Translations under genes and position numbers: made by a program
Shown here: piece after piece, positions 150-48,719 of the stretch
Layout of the letters: the number at the start of each line of letters is the position of its first letter
Numbering within the stretch: position 1 is the stretch's first letter
Source of the DNA: Symploca sp. SIO2E9
GTDB taxonomy: Bacteria; Cyanobacteriota; Cyanobacteriia; Cyanobacteriales; Coleofasciculaceae
Reading direction: 5' to 3'
DNA: 64,000 nt
Assembly (NCBI GenBank): GCA_010692645.1
Contig: JAAHGS010000005.1
Span: 1 to 64,000 of the forward strand
The notes under the pieces: model-generated
Seen by the model: the letters and a program-made list of their open reading frames with translations, nothing else
What the model was told of the DNA's origin: nothing
Database searches by the model: none

Positions 150-636
150 CTGGCAGAAGATCTTTATTAGCTAGACTCTGGTGTATTTCCATGGGTTTGA
201 GTTTACTGAGATCCTTTGCCAATTCCTGAATTTGTAAGTTTTTGAGTTGTGGGTTTCTAGGTAGTAAAGGAGCCAAAACCTCCCGAAGTAGTCCTAAGAT
301 TTGGGGTTCGGCAACCAGGATTAATTGCTGTGCTTGGTCAGTTTGAGCCAATTTAGCGATTTGATTAGCAATTATCTGAGCGAAGCGCCTTCCAAACTCA
401 CCGAGATGATTTTGACGATGATCGTCATAGGCATGACCTTGAGAACCTTTACCTTGGTTACGACCAGTTTTTACACTAGCCCAAAGTTCTTTGCCGGCGA
501 GTTCTTTTGCCCGATTGAAGAGAGTTTCACGCTCAACTAAATTTGGTCCTGACTCATATTCAGGCAATTGAACCTGCTCTAGAGAGAAAAAGCGTGCTCT
601 GGTTCCATCAACAACAGCAACGATTAATCCACTCAT
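127..636 (-). CDS. Host_attach-family protein
   Basis: A 169-residue soluble protein. The N-terminus (VAVVDGTRARFF) and the basic glycine-rich centre (KTGRNQGKGS, about residues 57-66) resemble the family named 'protein required for attachment to host cells' (Host_attach, PF10116). That name comes from a plant-associated bacterium, and the family is common in bacteria that attach to nothing, so the real role is unknown. The C-terminal half is leucine-rich and probably helical. No signal peptide or membrane segment is visible. The final seven codons and stop lie in the right arm of the inverted repeat at 90-149, so the 3' end deserves checking. Confidence 0.7.
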   Translation of the reverse strand: MSGLIVAVVDGTRARFFSLEQVQLPEYESGPNLVERETLFNRAKELAGKELWASVKTGRNQGKGSQGHAYDDHRQNHLGEFGRRFAQIIANQIAKLAQTDQAQQLILVAEPQILGLLREVLAPLLPRNPQLKNLQIQELAKDLSKLKPMEIHQSLANKDLLPARRKLST

Positions 637-744
637 TAGCTTATTAAACTAATAATATACTTCAATCCTAACAGTGGGTAACTGTCCACAGCTATTTGCC
701 AAATAAACCTTAATATTACTTGCTCAAATCTCATGGGGGCAGAG

Positions 745-842
745 GGGTGAACGAAATTTTGGTTGGAATTTTAATTCTCCGCGTCTGGAGCGTCTGGAGC
801 GTCTGCCTACTCCTTCCCCCACTATGCATTTTTCGCTCACCC
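745..842 (+). mobile_element. Family A mini-element, copy 1
   Basis: A 98-bp element starting GGGTGAACGAAATTTT and ending TTTTTCGCTCACCC, which form imperfect terminal inverted repeats. Inside are two units of CGTCTGGAG plus a partial third. It is nearly identical to copy 3 (4445-4540). No target duplication is visible (736-744 does not match 843-851), so this copy may have recombined or lost a flank. It lies 10 bp beyond the 3' end of the RHH gene. Confidence 0.75.
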
Positions 843-852
843 GTAGCTCAAG

Positions 853-1080
853 CTACTTATCCTCTTGCACTGCTGAGGTAGTTTCCATTTCCTGTAACTC
901 CTTTCTTGCTTTTAATGCTTCCTCGATCAGAATAGCTCCCATCTGACTTTGCGATCGCCTTTCATCTGTCGCCAGCTGTTCCAAATCTGCTGCTACATTG
1001 TTTTGCAGTACTACTGAAACTCGCTTACTCATGCCGCTTACTTCCTCAATTGAGTTACGAATATTACTATTTTCGCTCAT
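853..1080 (-). CDS. Small ribbon-helix-helix (CopG-like) protein
   Basis: A 75-residue protein. Residues 17-60 show the RHH pattern: a basic strand (KRVSVVL) followed by two helices (VAADLEQLATDE and QMGAILIEEALKAR). This fits a small DNA-binding repressor or an antitoxin-type protein. The start at 1080 gives MSENSN; an internal start at 1032 (MSKRVS) would give 59 residues and just the core. A longer reading frame to 1260 exists only because mini-element copy 2 is open in that frame, so it is rejected. No toxin gene adjoins it. The gene is bracketed by two inverted Family A elements. Confidence 0.6.
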   Translation of the reverse strand: MSENSNIRNSIEEVSGMSKRVSVVLQNNVAADLEQLATDERRSQSQMGAILIEEALKARKELQEMETTSAVQEDK

Positions 1081-1132
1081 TTGCGCGTTTTTTGGCAAAA
1101 GTAACACCTGCATCAATAACAGCATAAGGGAC

Positions 1133-1287
1133 TTCCAAATAGGGTGAGCGAAAAAAGGCGTGGGGAAATAAGTAGCAGACGCTCCAGACGCTCCAGACAC
1201 GGAGACGCTCCAGACACGGAGACGCTCCAGACACGGAGACGCGGAGAATTCAAGTCCCACGCAAAATTTCGTTCACCTTTCCAAATA
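1133..1287 (-). mobile_element. Family A mini-element, copy 2, with 9-bp target duplication
   Basis: The element proper is 1142-1278 (137 bp). It is flanked by a perfect direct repeat TTCCAAATA at 1133-1141 and 1279-1287. Left end GGGTGAGCGAAAAAAGG, right end AATTTCGTTCACCT. The centre has an expanded array of GACGCTCCA and ACACGGA units, the longest of the four copies. It lies about 60 bp upstream of the RHH start codon, so it may affect that promoter. Confidence 0.85.
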
Positions 1288-1300
1288 AAAAAATATCCCC

Positions 1301-2728
1301 TCAAGGTACTGGCACAAACTCATGACTGAAACTGGTACGAGAACCGGACTGAATCTTAACTAGTTGTACACCTTGATTGCGATCGCCCGATGGCAAAAAC
1401 CGAATTACACCAGAGGCACCACTAACATAAAAATTCGACGCCGAAAGTGCCTGCTGAACACCACTGCGACTAGGATTTTTTTCAATCGCACTAATCAAGG
1501 CTTTGGCAGCATCATAGGAAAGTGCACTGCGCCAATTAACCTCTCCTACCCAAAGTTGATTAGCAGTTTTAGTAAACTCAGATCGAGGACTTCCGAGAAT
1601 ATGCCAAGGAATCGCCACCACCATATCTTCAGCTTCCTCTGCTCCTACCTGTAAAGTCTTAGGCTTATAGACAGCATCTCCCCCAAGAATACTTAGTCGC
1701 TTGCGATTAACCTTAACCACTTGCAGTGCCTTATCGAGAGTGCTACCATTGGCAGCCAGCATAAGTACCTGAGCATCACTCTTAATTGCCTGAGCTAAGC
1801 TGCCTGCTGCACTAAAATTAGGATTGGACAAATCAAACTCACTTACGATTTGCCCTCCTCCCAGAGAAACTGCAGTTACAAACTCAGACTTTAAGGAACG
1901 GCTATAGCCACTTTCGGAATTATAGAAAACAGCTGCTTTTTGCTGCTTAAGTCCTCGCAACATATAATCAGCTAGTGCTCTAGCAGCAACGTAATCACTA
2001 GGAACAGTACGAAAAACATAGTTACTCAAACCAGAAAGTTTGACAGAAGTGCTGATTGGAGAAATTGCCACTAGTTCACCAGATTGATAAATATCGGCGG
2101 TTCCAATAGTGACATCGCTGGCATAATGACCGACAACCCCCAATACTTCTGATTTATTGACCAATTTTACCGCCACTTTTTTAGCCACCTCTGGGTGATT
2201 GTTGTCGTCGGCAATGATTACTTTTAAGGGAACACCTTTAATCCCACCAGTTTTATTAATTTCATTTTGAGCTTGAGCAACACCGCGCAGCATTTCCTTT
2301 GCGGCATTAACATCAGAACCAATAGGGACAGAAGCAGCAATGGTGTAGAACTTTTGCTCTCCAATGCGAGCATTGTTGAGATAGATCAGAATTTCTGGGT
2401 CATTGCGATCAAGCTTGAGAGCTGCTTCAAGTTTAGATACAGCCTTTTGGTAATCGCCAGCTTTGATTGCTTCGACAGCCACTTGTTTTTCTAGGTTGGC
2501 GATAGAGACAATTAACGCCTTTTCTCCTCCACTGAGGCGCACTTTAACTTCCGGATTGGAAGCCGTCATCGTAGTTAATGTGGTTGTAGCAGTTAATGTT
2601 GCTGTTTTAGGAGCAGGGTTTAGTTGGAGACGTAAACGACTAAGCAACCACCACGCACCAACTGCAACTAAAGACAGGGTGACTACTAAAGAAACTACAA
2701 GAACTCTGGTTTCGTTTTTCTGGTACAT
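1301..2728 (-). CDS. Type-1 periplasmic-binding receptor-like protein with TPR-like segment
   Basis: A 475-residue protein. A single hydrophobic segment near residues 9-30 acts as anchor or uncleaved signal. A Thr/Ala-rich linker follows, then a TPR-like helix pair (about 88-120, AGDYQKAVSKLEAALKL), then a LivJ-type ligand-binding domain (about 132-470) with the typical EINKTGGIKG and VVGHYASDVT motifs. It probably binds an amino-acid-like ligand outside the membrane. No ABC permease is adjacent. The gene starts 34 bp downstream of a membrane Ser/Thr kinase on the same strand, so the pair may be an operon in which this protein senses a ligand for the kinase; that is inference. There is no lipobox. 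Confidence 0.8.
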   Translation of the reverse strand: MYQKNETRVLVVSLVVTLSLVAVGAWWLLSRLRLQLNPAPKTATLTATTTLTTMTASNPEVKVRLSGGEKALIVSIANLEKQVAVEAIKAGDYQKAVSKLEAALKLDRNDPEILIYLNNARIGEQKFYTIAASVPIGSDVNAAKEMLRGVAQAQNEINKTGGIKGVPLKVIIADDNNHPEVAKKVAVKLVNKSEVLGVVGHYASDVTIGTADIYQSGELVAISPISTSVKLSGLSNYVFRTVPSDYVAARALADYMLRGLKQQKAAVFYNSESGYSRSLKSEFVTAVSLGGGQIVSEFDLSNPNFSAAGSLAQAIKSDAQVLMLAANGSTLDKALQVVKVNRKRLSILGGDAVYKPKTLQVGAEEAEDMVVAIPWHILGSPRSEFTKTANQLWVGEVNWRSALSYDAAKALISAIEKNPSRSGVQQALSASNFYVSGASGVIRFLPSGDRNQGVQLVKIQSGSRTSFSHEFVPVP

Positions 2729-2762
2729 GAACCGGTGATGCTCACCACATAAGTGCAGGCTT

Positions 2763-4220
2763 TTAGAGCCACCGGGATAGCAGCTGATAAATCAGCCTGA
2801 AAAGAGCTGCCGTTGCGATCGCCCCTGCCCCTGACACAATTGCTGTTATAATGACATCCCCTATAATCATATTTTCTAGGGGAAAATCACGCAGATCTGG
2901 AAGAAATGCTACAGCAGCTAAAGTTATCCCAGCAATTAATATTAAATCAATTTTTTCAATGATGCGGCGGAACTCAGCAAAAATGAGTCCCCCCATAATC
3001 ATACCCCACAATCCGATGCCCAACTCTACTGAAGAAACTAAGCTGCCCAAAGCAATAAATAGCAGTGCACCTTCAAAACCAGTGAAAGCCGCACCACTGA
3101 GTACTTCTAACAAAGAAAAGCGAGGCTTCCTGGGTTGAAGATTGATCGGCGCTGGTGGAGGATTTACAGGTTGAGGGACTGGGATTGCAGCTGGGACAGG
3201 ATTTTGCACCTGAGGTGGTGGTATCTGGGCTGAAAGTGATGGTGTTTGTGGCTTAACTTGTGGTACTTTTGCTCTGTTGAGGGCATTTATCACCTCCTGG
3301 GCAGACTGAAAGCGTTGCTCGGGAACAGGCAAAAGCATTCGATTCAAGACTGCTTCTAGATTGTCACTTACTGGAGAATAATTTATCCATAGCCATTGGT
3401 TGCTGTAGGAGTCGTAAAGTGTTTCTGGATTTTGGCCTGTGAGTAAGGTAATTGCAGTTACTGCCAGGGAATATAAGTCAGTTGAGGGATAAACTTGAGA
3501 GCCTCTGATTTGTTCTGGCGGCGCGAATACTCCAGAGTAAATTCTGGTGGACTTTCCCCCTGAGGCACTCCCAGCTGCTGTCACCTCCTTGACTGCCCCA
3601 AAATCTAAAAGATACAAACGCCCATGGCGCTGGCGCATGATATTAGAAGGTTTAATATCGCGGTGGATTTGACCATGGCTATGAACAAATTTGAGTACTT
3701 TGAGGATTTCCAGTAGCACTTCCAAGACTTGCGCTTGAGAAAATTGTCCTTTGGACTTTAGTTCCTCTTCCAAGTCTTGTCCATCAATAAATTCTTGCAC
3801 TAAGTAGAAAAACTCATCTTCTTTGCCTGGTTGTAGACTGGGAGTACTTAAGGAAAAGAAAGCGAACAAATCGGGAATTTGGGGGTGACTTCTGCCTAGT
3901 CTCTCTAGAACTTCTGCTTCCCGTCTAAATAGGTTTTGCGCTATTTCTAGCTGTTTTGGTGTCAAGTCACCAGTAGGCTGAAACTGTTTGACGACACATT
4001 GACGACAAGTTGGTGTATCACGATCCTTTGCCAAAAATGCTGCTCCAAAACCGCCCTGACCGAGTAATCTAAGTGGTATGTAACGACCGCGCAAAATCAG
4101 CGGCATACCGCAGCTAGTGCAATACTTCTGTTCTACCGTCTGGAGAGTGGTTTTGTTATCGAGATCAGCAAAGACATTGTGGGGGTAGGAACAGCCGGGA
4201 CGAGTACAGTGAATTTTCAT
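2763..4220 (-). CDS. Membrane Ser/Thr protein kinase with N-terminal zinc-ribbon-like motif
   Basis: A 485-residue eukaryotic-type kinase. Residues 5-37 hold paired cysteines (CTRPGC and CTSCG), a putative zinc ribbon common in cyanobacterial kinases of this type. The kinase domain (about 48-315) has the glycine loop LGQGGFGAAF, the lysine in VVKQF, the catalytic loop HRDIKPSN, DFGAVK in place of DFG, and APPEQ in the activation segment, so it should be active. A proline-rich linker follows, then about four hydrophobic helices (375-480) that would hold it in the membrane. The receptor-like gene follows after 34 bp, suggesting co-transcription. Target proteins are unknown. Confidence 0.9.
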   Translation of the reverse strand: MKIHCTRPGCSYPHNVFADLDNKTTLQTVEQKYCTSCGMPLILRGRYIPLRLLGQGGFGAAFLAKDRDTPTCRQCVVKQFQPTGDLTPKQLEIAQNLFRREAEVLERLGRSHPQIPDLFAFFSLSTPSLQPGKEDEFFYLVQEFIDGQDLEEELKSKGQFSQAQVLEVLLEILKVLKFVHSHGQIHRDIKPSNIMRQRHGRLYLLDFGAVKEVTAAGSASGGKSTRIYSGVFAPPEQIRGSQVYPSTDLYSLAVTAITLLTGQNPETLYDSYSNQWLWINYSPVSDNLEAVLNRMLLPVPEQRFQSAQEVINALNRAKVPQVKPQTPSLSAQIPPPQVQNPVPAAIPVPQPVNPPPAPINLQPRKPRFSLLEVLSGAAFTGFEGALLFIALGSLVSSVELGIGLWGMIMGGLIFAEFRRIIEKIDLILIAGITLAAVAFLPDLRDFPLENMIIGDVIITAIVSGAGAIATAALFRLIYQLLSRWL

Positions 4221-4435
4221 TGTCTACAGATCATCGAAAGCTTGGAGAAAGCAGATCGCAGCATTAATCATACTAAAATCACCCGCTGGGTAGTTGCTTT
4301 ATCTCTTAACTTTAACTTTCTTGAGATTTTGAGGCTCAATCTCTTAGCTCCTTAGCACTCCTTCGGCTACCTTCAACGGAATCTGAGACTCGACATTGAT
4401 CCCGAAGAGATTTATTGACACTCACCCACCGAGGG

Positions 4436-4549
4436 GGAGGCAGCGGGTGAGCGAAATTTTGGTTGGAATTTCAATTCTCCGCGTCTGGAGCGTCTGGAGC
4501 GTCTGCTTACTCCTTCCCCCACTCTTTTTTTCCCTCACCCGGAGGCAGC
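4436..4549 (+). mobile_element. Family A mini-element, copy 3, with 9-bp target duplication
   Basis: The element is 4445-4540 (96 bp) with a perfect direct repeat GGAGGCAGC at 4436-4444 and 4541-4549. It starts GGGTGAGCGAAATTTTGG and ends TTTCCCTCACCC. Its interior matches copy 1 almost base for base, including the CGTCTGGAG units. It lies in the 356-bp gap between the kinase start and the rbcR stop; I see no gene in the rest of that gap. Confidence 0.88.
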
Positions 4550-4576
4550 AGACCATTATTTTGGGTCAAAAAAACC

Positions 4577-5581
4577 TTAACTTTCTAATGGATTACTAGC
4601 AGCTGCTTTGATGGTCTCAGTTTTCGCTTTTGATGGATGCATTGTTATCTGTTGCCATCCTGGAGAAGCAAATCTCGGCAAAATTTCTTTGATGAAGGCT
4701 TCTGCTGCCTTGGAACGGTAGCGATTAGGGTTGGCAATTACCGAGAGGGTCCTCTTAACTACCACTTGTTCTATTATTGCCCGGTGCAGAATGCCCATTT
4801 GTAACTCTTTTTCAATGGCTGAAATTGAGACAAATGCTGCTCCTAGCCCCGACTGCACAGCATTTTTAATTGCCTCAATCGAGTTGAGTTCCATCTCAAT
4901 TTTCAGACGTCTAGTGTCAATTTCACAACGAGATAGTACTTGGTCAATGACTTTGCGGATTGTGGATTGGGAATCTAGGGCAATGAATTGCAACTTGTAT
5001 AAGTCTTCTCTGTGAATTGTCTCAACTTTGGAGAGTGGGTGAAAGGCTGGCAAAATCAGAGCTAGTTCATCTTCTGCATAGGGTATAATTTCCAATGTTT
5101 CTTGTAATTCTGCCGGAACCTCACCACCAATAATTGCCAAATCTACTTGTCCATTGGCTACACTCCAAGAAGTGCGGCGAGTTGAGTGAACCTGCAATTG
5201 TACGGCAACATCGGGGTAACGTTGCCGGAACATGCCAATCATGCGGGGCAAAAGATAAGTACCGGTGGTTTGAGAAGCCCCAACAATCAGAGTGCCGCCC
5301 TGGAGACTTTGTAAATCCTCAAGCGCGCGGCAAGTTTCCTGACAAAGGGAGAGAATTTTTTCTCCATAACTCAGGAGTAAGTATCCTGCCTCTGTCAGTT
5401 GGGCACGGCGTCCACCTCGATCAAATAACGGCACATCTAACTGTCGCTCTAAGTTTTGGACTTGTAGGCTGACAGCCGGCTGCGAAACATAAAGGCTATC
5501 GGCAGCGCGCTTGAAACTCCCCTCAGTAGCAATTGCTTTAAGAATTCGGAGTTGGTCAAGGGTAAAAGGAAGGTCAGACAT
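4577..5581 (-). CDS. rbcR: LysR-type regulator, RbcR-like
   Basis: A 334-residue LysR-family regulator. Residues 5-65 form the winged helix-turn-helix ([20 protein letters not shown]), and the rest is the effector-binding domain with the [12 protein letters not shown] and VHSTRRTSW segments characteristic of RbcR (Ycf30). RbcR controls rubisco genes, and its paralogue NdhR/CcmR controls carbon uptake. I chose [10 protein letters not shown] at 5581 because this N-terminus is conserved in the family; an upstream in-frame start at 5617 would add 12 residues. It is divergent from nnrU and near ndhF1 and ndhD1, which suits a role in carbon or redox control. Confidence 0.85.
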
Positions 5582-5771
5582 ACTGCTAAACCTCAAAAGG
5601 ATTTGGAACCAAGGCAACTAACGATTCCGGTAATGGGGTTTGACTCAAACCTTAGATTGCCCCTCATGAATGTGTAAGCCTCTGCTGACATTGACAGTAA
5701 CACAACACGGGATTAAGTCCCTCTTCAAATTTTTGCTAGGATGATATGTTTCCGAATTTATATCAATTACT

Positions 5772-21395: not shown

Positions 21396-22535
21396 ATGTT
21401 TAAAGGCATTGCTATTTTTACGCCAGGGGGAGATTTAATTTATGCGATCGACCCTAGCAAGCGGGGGCAATGGCACCTGCATTTGTGTGTTGCTCTACAA
21501 GAAATTTTTGGTTTACCGGAACCTCCTCATTTTTTAGTGCCTGGGTATACTGCTACGATTGACCAATGGCTCGACCCTAGAACCAAGCAGTTGCAAACTT
21601 CAGCAGAAATTTATCGACCAGTGCAACATCATCAAGCACTGCTAAATTCTGTCTTTGGCACTAGTAACTTAGTCTGGCAAGTAGCTCCATGGCAAGAGGA
21701 TGCTTGTGATCCAACCGTGCTGGAGACTTATCGCCACCAGTTTTCTCCACTCTGGGAAGACCATGACTTAATTGTGTGCTTAGAGCGCCAGCAGGGGTTA
21801 TTTCGTCCTACTTTTCTGGAAGGGCTAAGCTCTAGTTCCTATGATCACCTCCAAGATATTCAGGGCAAAAGGATGTCTTTAGGTGAGACCAACAGCTATG
21901 CACATGAGCAACAAAGACCCACAGAGGAAGTTGATGCTAAGAGCAACTTTAACAATAAAGAAGCTGTTGCAAAGCAACTAATAGAGAGTGAGCAGGTATT
22001 TCTGCCATCCTCTTCGAGAACTTCTCCTCCTAAACCAGAAAATTACAATTTAGACAACGGCAATAGCCAGCAGCAAAAGACTGAGGAGAATTTTACCTCT
22101 GAGGTGGAACCTTACGGTAAGATCGAAGACTTTGCTAAACAAGATGCTGATCAATGTGATTATACTGAACCTGATTTGCTTAAAGGTTCAGCTACTCAGG
22201 AGCAAACAGCTATAGACTCTGAAAGAATAGACGAAACCTCACAGCTAAGACGTGCCCATGGCTACGTACTACGTTTATTTGTTTCTGGCAACAATGCGAC
22301 TACAGAACATACTCTCAAGAGCTTGCACCAATTGTTAGAGCATTCTCTTAGTTATCCTTACACTCTAAAAGTAATTGATGTTTTCAAGCACCCAGAGCAA
22401 GCAGAGGCTAATCAAATCTCGGCTACACCAACGCTACTTAGAGTCTGGCCGGAACCTGTTCGCCGGATTGTCGGTAACTTGAATGATCTTGAGAGAGTCT
22501 TGCAGGTAATGGCTGCCCCATCCGAGGTTTCTTAG
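21396..22535 (+). CDS. Cyanobacterial protein with C-terminal KaiB-like domain
   Basis: A 379-residue protein. Residues 1-150 form a conserved-looking region (MFKGIAIFTPGGDLIYAID, HWL-type tryptophans, PHFLVPGYTATIDQWLD). A polar, low-complexity linker runs from about 165 to 280. The last 90 residues are a KaiB/thioredoxin-like fold: YVLRLFVSGNN, LKVIDVFKHPEQAE, ATPTLLRVWPEPVRRIVG, closely following KaiB (LKVIDVLKNP, ATPTL, PPVRRIIG). KaiB binds KaiC in the circadian clock and the same fold occurs in SasA. Whether this protein touches the clock is unknown. A TTG at 21360 would add 12 residues; ATG at 21396 gives the more natural N-terminus. Its stop overlaps the convergent lipoprotein gene by 4 bp. 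Confidence 0.75.
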   Translation: MFKGIAIFTPGGDLIYAIDPSKRGQWHLHLCVALQEIFGLPEPPHFLVPGYTATIDQWLDPRTKQLQTSAEIYRPVQHHQALLNSVFGTSNLVWQVAPWQEDACDPTVLETYRHQFSPLWEDHDLIVCLERQQGLFRPTFLEGLSSSSYDHLQDIQGKRMSLGETNSYAHEQQRPTEEVDAKSNFNNKEAVAKQLIESEQVFLPSSSRTSPPKPENYNLDNGNSQQQKTEENFTSEVEPYGKIEDFAKQDADQCDYTEPDLLKGSATQEQTAIDSERIDETSQLRRAHGYVLRLFVSGNNATTEHTLKSLHQLLEHSLSYPYTLKVIDVFKHPEQAEANQISATPTLLRVWPEPVRRIVGNLNDLERVLQVMAAPSEVS

Positions 22536-24655
22536 CCAAGGGGATTTGGTGCAGGGCTTGGAGGAGTTGATTGCTCCAATGCTGGCAACTCAGATGGCTC
22601 TGGCAGCAAAGTCGATTCTGGAGGAGTAGTTTCCTGTGCTGGCTCTAGAGGCTCTTCTACAGAAACTGCTGCAGGGCTTGGAGGAGTTGATTGCTCCAAT
22701 GCTGGCAACTCAGATGGCTCTGGCAGCAAAGTCGATTCTGGAGGAGTAGTTTCCTGTGCTGTTTCTAGAGGCTCTTCTACAGAAACTGCTGCAGGGCTTG
22801 GAGGAGTTGATTGCTCCAATGCTGGCAACTCAGATGGCTCTGGCAGCAAAGTCGATTCTGAAGGAGTAGTTTCCTGTGCTGGCTCTAGAGGCTCTTCTAC
22901 AGAAACTGCTGCAGGGCTTGGAGGCGTTAATTCCTCCAATGCTGGCAACTCAGATGGCTCTGGCAGCAAAGTCGATTCTGGAGGAGTAGTTTCCTGTGCT
23001 GGCTCTAGAGGCTCCTCTACAGAAACTGCTGCAGGGCTTGGAGGAGTTGATTGCTCCAATGCTGGCAACTCAGATGGCTCTGGCAGCAAAGTCGATTCTG
23101 GAGGAGTAGTTTCCTGTGCTGTTTCTAGAGGCTCTTCTACAGAAACTGGTGCTTCGCTTTGGGTAGTTGATTTCTCTAATACCGGAGCGATTTCTGTTGG
23201 CGGCTCAGATGGTTCCGGCACCAAACTTGGTTCTAAGGAGGGAGCCTGCACTTCCTCAGAGGCTTCTGGTGAGGAAGCAGGAGCATCAGACTGGAGGAAT
23301 GGGAGTCGGAAGCGAGTAAAGAAGCGAGTAAAGATATTCCCCGATTCTGGTTTTTCAGCTGGTAATGGTTCAGTTAGAGCTGATTGCACTCCATTCGTCG
23401 ACTCCTCAGACGGCACAGATGATTCGCTAGGAATTGCTGATTCAGCAGCCGAGTTTTCTTCCTCTGCTGGCAACTCTGGTTCAGGAGTTAGAATTTCTTC
23501 CGGCTCAGGAGTTAGAATTTCCTCCGGCTCAGGAGTTAAAATTTCCTCTGGTTCAGGAGTTAAAATTTCCTCTGGCTCAGGAGTTAAAATTTCCTCTGGC
23601 TCAGGAGTTAAAGTTTCCTCTGGTTCAGGAGTTAGAATTTCCTCCGGCTCAGGAGGCACGACAGGTATAGGTGTTGCTTTGGGCTCTGCCTGGTAATTAG
23701 GTTCTACGATGCTACGAACTCTCTCAAAAGTTAGTTCACCGCGCACAAGCCTAGAAAGCGCATCTTTACCATTAGCTTCATAGTTAATTAGTCGCACGGT
23801 GTTATTGAAGACATTATTAACAGGGTTTCCCTGATCATCTATAAACTCCAACTGAACCCAGTTTTTGCCAGATTTGAAACCTTTGAGATAAACCGACTGC
23901 CAGCGATCAAGAATGAAACTTTCACCGTTAACTGTGACACGAATTCGCCAATCAGCAATTTCGTCATCAGGGCTTTCAGTGGCAATTAGGTGAAGTGGAG
24001 CATTAGTAAGGTAGAAATCGAGCAAAATTGGCTGAGATCCATAACTGCCAACAGGACTGTTGTAAGTCAGCAATGGCAAGGTTGAATCTGGATTATTATC
24101 AGCACTCTTAGTAAAGACGTGAAATGTAGTCTGGGCATAGGCTCCTTCATTCTTGAAGCTCTCATACCAAGGGCGGCAAGCAAAAACCCTCAGCGTGTGA
24201 GTTCCTGGTTCTAGATCCTTCAAAATTAAAGGCTGTTCCCAGTCATAAACCCTGGTGTAGGGTCGATTGTCAAGAATCACCTCAAGATGAGAACCAAGTC
24301 CTAGCTCTGAATCTTGAAAGATTGGCAAATCCTGAACTTGGAATTGTACATCTACTGTGGTATCTCGAATAATTTCATCAGTGCTAGGACTTATGAGCTT
24401 GACTTGAGGCTGATAAATATCCAAACTCCGATTCAGTTTCTGAATGGTTGGGGGCGGCGCAACCTCAACAAGTTGCCCTGATAGCCCAGTTTCAGACCTG
24501 ACTTTAGTCTCCGATACTTGCAAATTGTCAGACTCGATGCGATCCTGACAGCTCACTAGAGTCCAGCTAAGAAACACTGTGATCAGGAATGAAAAAAGTA
24601 CTCTTAGAGTTGCCCACCGGCGATTTTTACCCAACACGCCATCTCCTTTTGCCAC
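22532..24655 (-). CDS. Repeat-rich lipoprotein
   Basis: A 707-residue secreted protein. An N-terminal hydrophobic stretch ends in the lipobox LVSC, giving lipidated Cys36. Residues about 85-310 look like a folded beta-rich domain (HTLRVFACRPWYESFKNEGAY, WVQLEFIDDQGNPV). Residues about 335-393 are seven or more 8-residue PEPEEILT repeats. Residues about 500-700 are five 40-residue Pro/Glu/Ser/Thr-rich repeats (ESTLLPEPSELPALE). Function is not recognised; it may link the membrane to the peptidoglycan or outer layer. The repeats are nearly identical at DNA level, so copy number may vary between strains. Confidence 0.75.
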   Translation of the reverse strand: MAKGDGVLGKNRRWATLRVLFSFLITVFLSWTLVSCQDRIESDNLQVSETKVRSETGLSGQLVEVAPPPTIQKLNRSLDIYQPQVKLISPSTDEIIRDTTVDVQFQVQDLPIFQDSELGLGSHLEVILDNRPYTRVYDWEQPLILKDLEPGTHTLRVFACRPWYESFKNEGAYAQTTFHVFTKSADNNPDSTLPLLTYNSPVGSYGSQPILLDFYLTNAPLHLIATESPDDEIADWRIRVTVNGESFILDRWQSVYLKGFKSGKNWVQLEFIDDQGNPVNNVFNNTVRLINYEANGKDALSRLVRGELTFERVRSIVEPNYQAEPKATPIPVVPPEPEEILTPEPEETLTPEPEEILTPEPEEILTPEPEEILTPEPEEILTPEPEEILTPEPELPAEEENSAAESAIPSESSVPSEESTNGVQSALTEPLPAEKPESGNIFTRFFTRFRLPFLQSDAPASSPEASEEVQAPSLEPSLVPEPSEPPTEIAPVLEKSTTQSEAPVSVEEPLETAQETTPPESTLLPEPSELPALEQSTPPSPAAVSVEEPLEPAQETTPPESTLLPEPSELPALEELTPPSPAAVSVEEPLEPAQETTPSESTLLPEPSELPALEQSTPPSPAAVSVEEPLETAQETTPPESTLLPEPSELPALEQSTPPSPAAVSVEEPLEPAQETTPPESTLLPEPSELPALEQSTPPSPAPNPLG
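22549..23150. repeat. Five 120-bp tandem repeats inside the lipoprotein gene
   Basis: Units of 120 bp begin at about 22549, 22669, 22789, 22909 and 23029. They differ at only a few bases (for example GGCTCTAG versus GTTTCTAG). The repeat length is a multiple of three, so copy-number change keeps the frame. Confidence 0.92.
23472..23655. repeat. 24-bp tandem repeats inside the lipoprotein gene
   Basis: About seven copies of a 24-bp unit (GGCTCAGGAGTTAGAATTTC with TCC or TCT variants) encode PEPEEILT. The array is in frame. Confidence 0.9.
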
Positions 24656-48092: not shown

Positions 48093-48719
48093 TCAATTAC
48101 TAGAAGGCTTTAGGGGAAGATTTGGTGCTGGTATAATATCCGGTGTAAACTCCAGAGGAGGGTTTGATTTATTAGGTGATGAGGGAGGGAATAATTCGCT
48201 GGGGAAATCCTCGGCAGCAATACAGGTTGCTAGATTTCTGGAAGTGGAAAAATCACTCTGATTACTCAAACCGATAACACATTCAGAAAAGCGAAGGGGC
48301 AAAAGGCTGCGACGGCAGTGATCTAGAACTGATAATACTTCTGGGTTTGGGGTGCGATGATTGATATTGATTACACAACGTGCCAATTCTACAGGACGCC
48401 TGACTTTAGTGCAGGCGTTAAGGGCATCGCTGCCACTAGTAGGTGTCTGTAAATTAATTCTGAGGACGCATTCAGATAAGTCCTCGGGAACAAAAGCCTC
48501 TGCACAGGCTTTAACTGCTTGTTCTGGAGGAATATTAGCACGATCTAACTCTAGAGCGCAGAGTTCAAAATTATTAGAGGCAGCGCTGGCAGGAGAACTT
48601 GGAATGGCAATAGCTAATAATCCAGCTATTGCTAGTTGACTGACACAAACTTGCCTCGAAAGTGCTAAGGTTCGATTTCTAAAACTCTGAATAGGTCTGA
48701 TGCCACTTTGCTTATTCAT
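48093..48719 (-). CDS. Secreted protein with repeated cysteine motifs
   Basis: A 208-residue protein with an N-terminal hydrophobic signal ending near ASAASNN (about residue 47). Residues 52-165 hold four related segments of about 34 residues with paired cysteines: FELCALELDRANIPPEQAVK, LSECVLRINLQ, LARCVININ and FSECVIGLSN, each followed by a second cysteine. The last 40 residues are proline-rich. The pattern suggests a small disulfide-bonded repeat fold outside the cytoplasm. I do not recognise a characterised family. Confidence 0.65.
   Translation of the reverse strand: MNKQSGIRPIQSFRNRTLALSRQVCVSQLAIAGLLAIAIPSSPASAASNNFELCALELDRANIPPEQAVKACAEAFVPEDLSECVLRINLQTPTSGSDALNACTKVRRPVELARCVININHRTPNPEVLSVLDHCRRSLLPLRFSECVIGLSNQSDFSTSRNLATCIAAEDFPSELFPPSSPNKSNPPLEFTPDIIPAPNLPLKPSSN

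Follow-up and report, generated by a model that had tools for sequence, protein, structure and literature searches.

The window analyzed here, a 64,000-nt stretch of DNA from Symploca sp. SIO2E9, contains four copies of a mini-element with similar ends and different tandem arrays between them. This raises the question of what moves such an element and how its core can change between ends that stay fixed. All four copies that a sequence-only reading of the window had grouped into one family were found where that reading placed them (Table 1). In each, the left arm (GGGTGARCGNAATTTTG plus 15-20 bp) is followed by an array whose units are 8 or 9 bp long and built on GCGTCT; the right arm then ends near ...TTTTTTCGYTCACCC, up to a few differences. 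As had been read, copies 2, 3, and 4 are flanked by perfect and mutually different 9-bp direct repeats; the flanks of copy 1 are not duplicated (GGGGCAGAG / GTAGCTCAA). The GGGTGARCG ends proposed for the family are indeed shared, but copies 2, 3, and 4 each have one mismatch to them at the high-coordinate end. Likewise, the description of the core as 8- or 9-bp units holds for copies 1 and 3 (9 bp) and copy 4 (8 bp), whereas copy 2 is built from a 17-bp higher-order unit (positions 1186-1242: period 17, 3.4 copies, 100% matches).

Table 1. Copies of the mini-element in the window, with their arrays, target duplications, and facing gene ends.
Feature	Start	End	Strand	Details
MITE copy 1	745	842	+	no target duplication
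Array of copy 1	781	805	+	9-bp units, 2.8 copies
Right end of copy 1				10 bp from end of ORF 853-1260 (minus strand)
Target duplication of copy 2, low side	1133	1141	.	9 bp, TTCCAAATA
MITE copy 2	1142	1278	-	137 bp
Array of copy 2	1176	1242	-	17-bp higher-order unit
Target duplication of copy 2, high side	1279	1287	.	9 bp, TTCCAAATA
Target duplication of copy 3, low side	4436	4444	.	9 bp, GGAGGCAGC
MITE copy 3	4445	4540	+	96 bp
Array of copy 3	4481	4505	+	9-bp units, 2.8 copies
Right end of copy 3				36 bp (duplication counted) from the facing end of minus-strand ORF 4577-5617
Target duplication of copy 3, high side	4541	4549	.	9 bp, GGAGGCAGC
Target duplication of copy 4, low side	47906	47914	.	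9 bp, TTTTAGGAG
MITE copy 4	47915	48020	+	106 bp
Array of copy 4	47951	47981	+	8-bp units, 3.9 copies
Right end of copy 4				72 bp (duplication counted) from the facing end of minus-strand ORF 48093-48719
Target duplication of copy 4, high side	48021	48029	.	9 bp, TTTTAGGAG

The two flanks of copy 1 match two different contigs of a genome of the same genus (G001), and copy 1 may therefore sit at a rearrangement joint. Two further repeats were seen in the window. By eye, positions 1-148 form a long inverted repeat at the contig start (arms of about 60 bp, loop of about 30), which is perhaps an assembly hairpin of the contig end, and a 120-bp tandem repeat (22550-23180, 5.3 copies) lies inside ORF 22532-24655. 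Rfam at its gathering threshold reported only one tRNA in the window.

The sequence-only reading had proposed a genome-wide search with the element ends. In the SIO2E9 draft genome (G000; 7,745,768 bases in 383 contigs), the 17-base left end occurs 186 times as an exact match, and the reversed pattern, used as a control, is absent. Six of the 57 genomes searched contain the exact left end, SIO2E9 included, and all six belong to one family (SIO2E9 186, G013 76, G002 55, G017 23, G001 9, and G003 1). Among named species, the matches listed for the left-end pattern include Symploca, Calothrix, and Xenococcus records. Candidates from a plasmid collection were rejected, as the 14 records matching a 102-bp consensus did so mostly through the array-rich middle and none covered more than 80% of the query. 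Apart from one, all of the 73 intact copies parsed from the SIO2E9 loci that we retrieved are 78-137 bp long (72/73), and they carry no transposase gene. The exception, a 201-bp copy (L008, 1501-1701), has GTCGACCT-type units separated by roughly 100 bp of extra core sequence, and a second MITE is inserted at its right junction.

Target duplications accompany most copies. A first pass over 78 left-end places gave 49 perfect best-fitting 9-bp duplications and 10 with one mismatch, a few of these best fits being low-complexity chance matches, as at L037. Under the stricter parse, the 9-bp duplication is perfect at 50 of the 73 intact copies (it abuts the element end in 48 and is shifted by one base in two) and has a single mismatch at nine. 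Of the control pairings between flanks of different copies, 1 of 5256 is perfect, the one-base shift being allowed in both. The relatives behave similarly: duplications are perfect at 27/40 copies parsed from G013 and at 28/35 from G002. One MITE has inserted into the right end of another and duplicated the host's TTTTTTCGC, so that the empty site is here the known right end itself. The comparison with empty sites in relatives, which the sequence-only reading had suggested, succeeded at one site and gave no clean empty state at four others. At the successful site, a host repeat in G001 (L188) holds one TTAGGGTGA, and the same repeat in SIO2E9 (L038) holds the element and two TTAGGGTGA, the second with one base changed. 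The repeat itself is dispersed (GGGAGCATGTCA ... TGACATGCTC; L188 about 409-580, L038, and L034) and is used by the MITE as a landing site in SIO2E9. At the sites of copies 2, 3, and 4 and of L048, G001 lacks the element, but these candidates were rejected because the spacers differ in other respects too. No insertion site was shared between the 40 copies retrieved from G013 and the 35 from G002; one pair lies in a common spacer, but at different positions and in opposite orientation. The mini-element thus constitutes a transposing MITE family that generates 9-bp target duplications, which bears out the transposition claim made from the window.

A full-length IS with the same ends, which had been suggested as the thing to look for, was found in relatives. 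The best-preserved one, in G014 (L084), is 1932 bp long, has perfect inverted ends over 22 of 22 bp (GGGTGAGCGAAAAAAAGCGTGG), and is flanked by a duplication (GTTATTGGG) of 9 bp, the same length as that of the MITE. Its intact transposase of 429 aa scores 281.7 bits against NF033572 (cut-off 205) and is assigned by this match to the ISKra4 family. A second frame in L084 (1022-1438, minus strand) encodes 138 aa without a Pfam or NCBIfam match, and L072 also carries a second frame of about 138 aa. Three decayed ISs with perfect inverted ends of this kind were recovered as well: one of 1280 bp with GGTTGG-type ends in G002, one of 1093 bp with GCGTGGG-type ends in G001, and one of 1916 bp in G042. 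Those in G001 and G002 fall below the NF033572 cut-off, and none of the three has a 9-bp duplication, which is present only at L084.

The terminal inverted repeats of the MITE are common to the full-length ISKra4-family IS. The IS ends GGGTGAGCGAAA...TTTCGCTCACCC are found in L072, L074, L084, and L190, and the right end of the MITE, read outward-in, is GGGTGAGCGAAAAAARGCGTGGGG in one arm type. Two MITE arm types (GCGTGGG and GGTTGG) match two IS end types; for the third (GGGTGG), no partner was found among the ISs recovered. A profile search for ISKra4 in five genomes led to the decayed ISs of G002 and G001 and gave no match above the cut-off (0/5), and a protein search with the transposase across 291 genomes of the order returned six at E <= 1e-30. 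The SIO2E9 draft yielded no intact matching transposase, only a fragment aligned to query residues 258-357 (about 100 residues, 70% identity, G000:C135). A further ISKra4-like frame of 394 aa in this genome (L073, about 1500-2604) was rejected as the parent, its locus being without the ends of the MITE. Based on the shared ends, an ISKra4-type transposase is a candidate mobilizer and probably moves the MITEs.

The two ends of the MITE are not equivalent. The left end reads AAATTTTG in 118 of 124 copies and the right end AAAAAAAG or AAAAAAGG in 117 of 124, with AAAAAARG in most; base 7 is A on the left versus G on the right in 100 of 124. Since this asymmetry is common to the MITEs and absent from the ISs with matching ends, the MITEs look like a single shortened lineage rather than the product of repeated independent deletions.

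Between the arms, the 73 copies from SIO2E9 contain 141 units of 8 bp and 66 of 9 bp, and three full units are present in 44 copies. Among the 52 copies that contain at least three units, 26 have uniform arrays, but the unit differs from copy to copy: 10 are of the CC type, nine of the GG type, six of the GGA type, and one is other. Unit identity inside copies is 0.60, as opposed to 0.26 after shuffling (maximum 0.34). Pairs of copies with letter-identical arms have different arrays in 12 of 13 cases, which are partly non-independent as six of the pairs come from one group of four. The arms are linked to each other (mutual information 0.377 versus 0.099 shuffled; 0/2000 shuffles reach the observed value). 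Linkage between arm and array was not detected (916/2000 shuffles reach the observed value for the left arm and 460/2000 for the right) in a test of low power that pooled 23 mixed arrays as one class and whose table shows a mild trend.

One insertion is common to SIO2E9 and G001. Unit number is equal in the two copies, and none of the three unit pairs matches: the units are of the CC type in one species and of the GG type in the other. Both copies are damaged, with a 15-bp gap in the right arm in SIO2E9 and a worn left end in G001, and the shared site may represent two independent insertions at one place. The proposal that the array changes after insertion gains support from this one site and, indirectly, from the pairs with identical arms. 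Between the same ends, copies in G013 and G002 carry 9-mers of the AGCTCCCTC type and 8-mers of the CTCCTCCG, CTCCCCAT, and GCGTCTCC types; three longer copies in these genomes (L250, L256, and L259) contain 7-mers of other sequence, and copies in Calothrix and Xenococcus have CTCCCCACA-like units. Parsed copies in G013 and G002 reach 417 bp, where the long arrays (up to about 400 bp) of these drafts could contain assembly errors. At the other extreme, two 78-bp copies (L040 and L267) have no full unit at all. They are flanked by perfect duplications, so movement probably does not depend on the array, provided that these copies already lacked it when they inserted. In the zero-unit core TCTCYGCGTCT, TCT is repeated 8 bp apart.

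Similar arrays also exist outside the element. Of ten retrieved SIO2E9 arrays without a nearby exact left end, seven are free-standing, and the other three are parts of MITEs whose left ends are altered. The GCGTCTSS array occurs in five of 57 genomes, exactly those with at least nine MITE left ends, a co-occurrence confounded by kinship as the five are close relatives. The CTCCCCAT array is present in 28 of 57 genomes, many of them without the MITE. In L012 and L037, the right arm is lost where the array runs into a free-standing array, which suggests that MITE arrays and free-standing arrays exchange.

The insertions avoid genes: open frames of 120 aa contain seven of 54, as opposed to 62% of 1080 positions picked at random in the same flanks. 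To place copies relative to gene ends, we used simple ORF calls (100 aa) and copies of at most 420 bp with no more than one duplication mismatch and 400-bp flanks. This left 130 placed copies (54 from SIO2E9, 32 each from G013 and G002, and 12 from G001), the rest being dropped; 20 lie inside frames and 110 are intergenic. The median gap to a facing gene end is 39 bp for the right end of the element (n=59) versus 125 bp for the left end (n=43; p=1.7e-4), and in convergent pairs the right end is the nearer one in 17 of 20. Orientation between tandem genes is 36:20 (p=0.044; 1:3 in G001). Within 50 bp after a stop codon we found 32 of 91 evaluable right ends, evaluable meaning that both neighboring genes were called, versus nine of 91 left ends, where the null expectation is 14.4 each (sd 3.0), and none of 5000 simulations reached 32 right ends. 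By genome, the ratio of right to left ends near a stop is 16:6 in SIO2E9, 10:0 in G013, 5:1 in G002, and 1:2 in the small G001 set. This bias was noticed in the data after several classes had been viewed and was not predicted. The gap to gene starts does not differ between left and right ends (p=0.96), and a called start is no more than 50 bp away at nine insertions versus about 20 under the null.

With the right end toward the gene, the G-rich strand of the array is on the sense strand. As RNA, three of four tested sequences fold better than their shuffles (z -4.6, -6.4, and -6.9), among them the minus strand of L007 (-37.2 kcal/mol, z -6.4) and L048 (z -6.9); window copy 4 has z -1.68. A sense-oriented MITE transcript can thus, by prediction, fold into a long hairpin. 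A DNA hairpin was rejected as the basis, given that only copy 2 of the four window copies folds clearly better than shuffles as DNA. A terminator-like reading of the plus orientation (GC stem plus TTTTTT) gained no support either: a scan of window positions 600-5000 that allows only loops of 3-8 bases gave no site within an element.

As a control for orientation, we used 40 free-standing CTCCCCAT arrays, 32 from G013 and eight from G017; a smaller control of seven free-standing arrays was too few. The arrays were masked before ORF calling, as 26 of the 40 fall in open frames when unmasked. Both neighbors were called for 38. In 19 of these, a frame with the G-rich strand as its sense strand runs into the array, versus one in the other sense. 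Around the remaining 18, gene ends face the G-rich-sense side in 12 and the other side in three, and a stop lies within 50 bp in eight versus none (null 2.7 each; P(R>=8) 0.0018); the comparison of right and left distances taken alone (12 versus 3) is not significant (p=0.097). Arrays without the MITE therefore have the same orientation, and the stop-codon rule is not specific to the transposon.

How do these observations bear on the nature of the element? For the elements to be immobile, the 9-bp repeats would have to be chance matches or part of the repeat itself. We found no evidence supporting this, and the different perfect 9-mers set against the control pairings, the MITE inside a MITE, and the host repeat that is empty in G001 make it next to impossible. 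It is also conceivable that the arrays change slowly and mark old subfamilies, each handed down from one of several master copies. The identical-arm pair L006/L007, which has the same array, and the many near-identical 125-bp copies in G002 would agree with such a history. Nevertheless, we regard it as improbable in view of the arrays that differ between nearly all identical-arm pairs, the lack of detectable arm-array linkage, and the units that changed at the shared site. Very probably, the family is a non-autonomous MITE derived from an ISKra4-family IS (p-MULT 4), with ends that are fixed and a core that is free to change.

The position after stop codons leaves two readings. The bias may be a property of G-rich arrays, produced by selection or by transcription-linked expansion, with the MITE only as their carrier; we give this an even chance. 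The free-standing arrays without MITE ends, which share the orientation, speak for it, despite the nonsignificant distance comparison. Against it, the MITE copies look young, because of their perfect duplications and because no site is shared between G013 and G002, which would leave little time for selection. The left and right ends have moreover been kept different, and unequal ends of p-MULT elements have been proposed to orient insertion in the accessible part of PMC3942029. Alternatively, the transposase may target gene 3' ends, oriented by the unequal ends, as a counterpart of the promoter targeting of p-MULT elements. The excess of right ends near stops, their shorter distances, and the recurrence of the pattern in SIO2E9, G013, and G002 separately, if not in the small G001 set, would fit such targeting. 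The pattern is, however, post hoc, gene-start distances are equal for both ends, and MITE-free arrays obey the same rule without needing a transposase; targeting is therefore a serious possibility that falls somewhat short of even.

If the family is a MITE of ISKra4 origin, an ISKra4-type transposase acting in trans would recognize the ends, move whatever content they enclose, and make the 9-bp duplications, and the middle would be free to change between the recognized ends. Slippage and exchange between copies might then expand, contract, and homogenize the array more quickly than mutations alter the arms. The TCT repeat in the zero-unit core could seed 8-bp units by slippage, and the GGAG unit could come from fold-back copying of CTCC. 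The enrichment of insertions just downstream of stops would arise via targeting or selection. More speculatively, and in our view rather unlikely as a whole, the element might be a mobile cassette with an ISKra4-type chassis and a slot rewritten with the current 7-9-bp array, which spreads G-rich minisatellites in sense orientation to gene 3' ends and exchanges units with free-standing arrays.

Nezha, another cyanobacterial MITE, has a TA target of the IS630 type. PMC10969869 lists it among its references. According to the available portion of PMC3942029, p-MULT/ISKra4 elements have ends of 18-39 bp in which the terminal C is conserved, their duplications measure 8 or 9 bp, and part of the ISKra4 group inserts upstream of promoters. 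The hallmark of promoter-targeting p-MULT elements is a single orientation of insertion immediately upstream of sigma-A promoters. The present family resembles the ISKra4/p-MULT 4 elements (NF033572; PMC3942029, as far as the excerpt goes) in its outer ends, the terminal GGG/CCC, and the 9-bp duplications. Unlike these ISs, its copies are mostly 78-400 bp long, lack a transposase, and contain an internal tandem array, and they are biased to gene 3' ends, whereas insertion upstream of promoters is described in that excerpt for part of the ISKra4 group. BrickBuilt of Porphyromonas gingivalis, as described in the accessible text of PMC4596501, has IS5-like ends, 19 copies, a 23-nt unit, and inconsistent duplications. 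The two are alike in being MITEs with a minisatellite core between a conserved leader and tail (PMC4596501, same text). Hence the view that such a core is unusual for MITEs is right, but the feature is not unique. Membership in the BrickBuilt type was rejected, since neither IS5-family ends nor 23-nt units are present. In contrast to BrickBuilt, the family described here has ends of the ISKra4 type and 9-bp duplications, its exact left end occurs 186 times in a single genome, and its units, 8-9 bp in SIO2E9, differ in sequence among copies and species. The G-rich heptamers of Nostoc and Xanthomonas are plain repeats in the part of PMC4692102 at hand, whereas here the array rides on a transposable element; the rule for stop codons and orientation agrees with that report to the same extent.

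Precedents thus exist both for MITEs with an internal minisatellite and for p-MULT ISs whose duplications are 8 or 9 bp long. In our limited literature search, partly on excerpts, we came across neither an ISKra4-derived MITE with such arrays nor a MITE whose array takes on another sequence while the arms stay fixed. The family provides a natural experiment, as the many near-identical arms in each genome form a fixed background on which the birth, expansion, homogenization, and replacement of minisatellites can be read. It also connects MITEs with another feature of cyanobacterial genomes, the short G-rich tandem arrays that follow stop codons. If targeting underlies the 3'-end rule, the rule would represent an insertion specificity absent from the p-MULT description in the accessible part of PMC3942029; if it reflects selection, it would point to a function of transcribed G-rich repeats.
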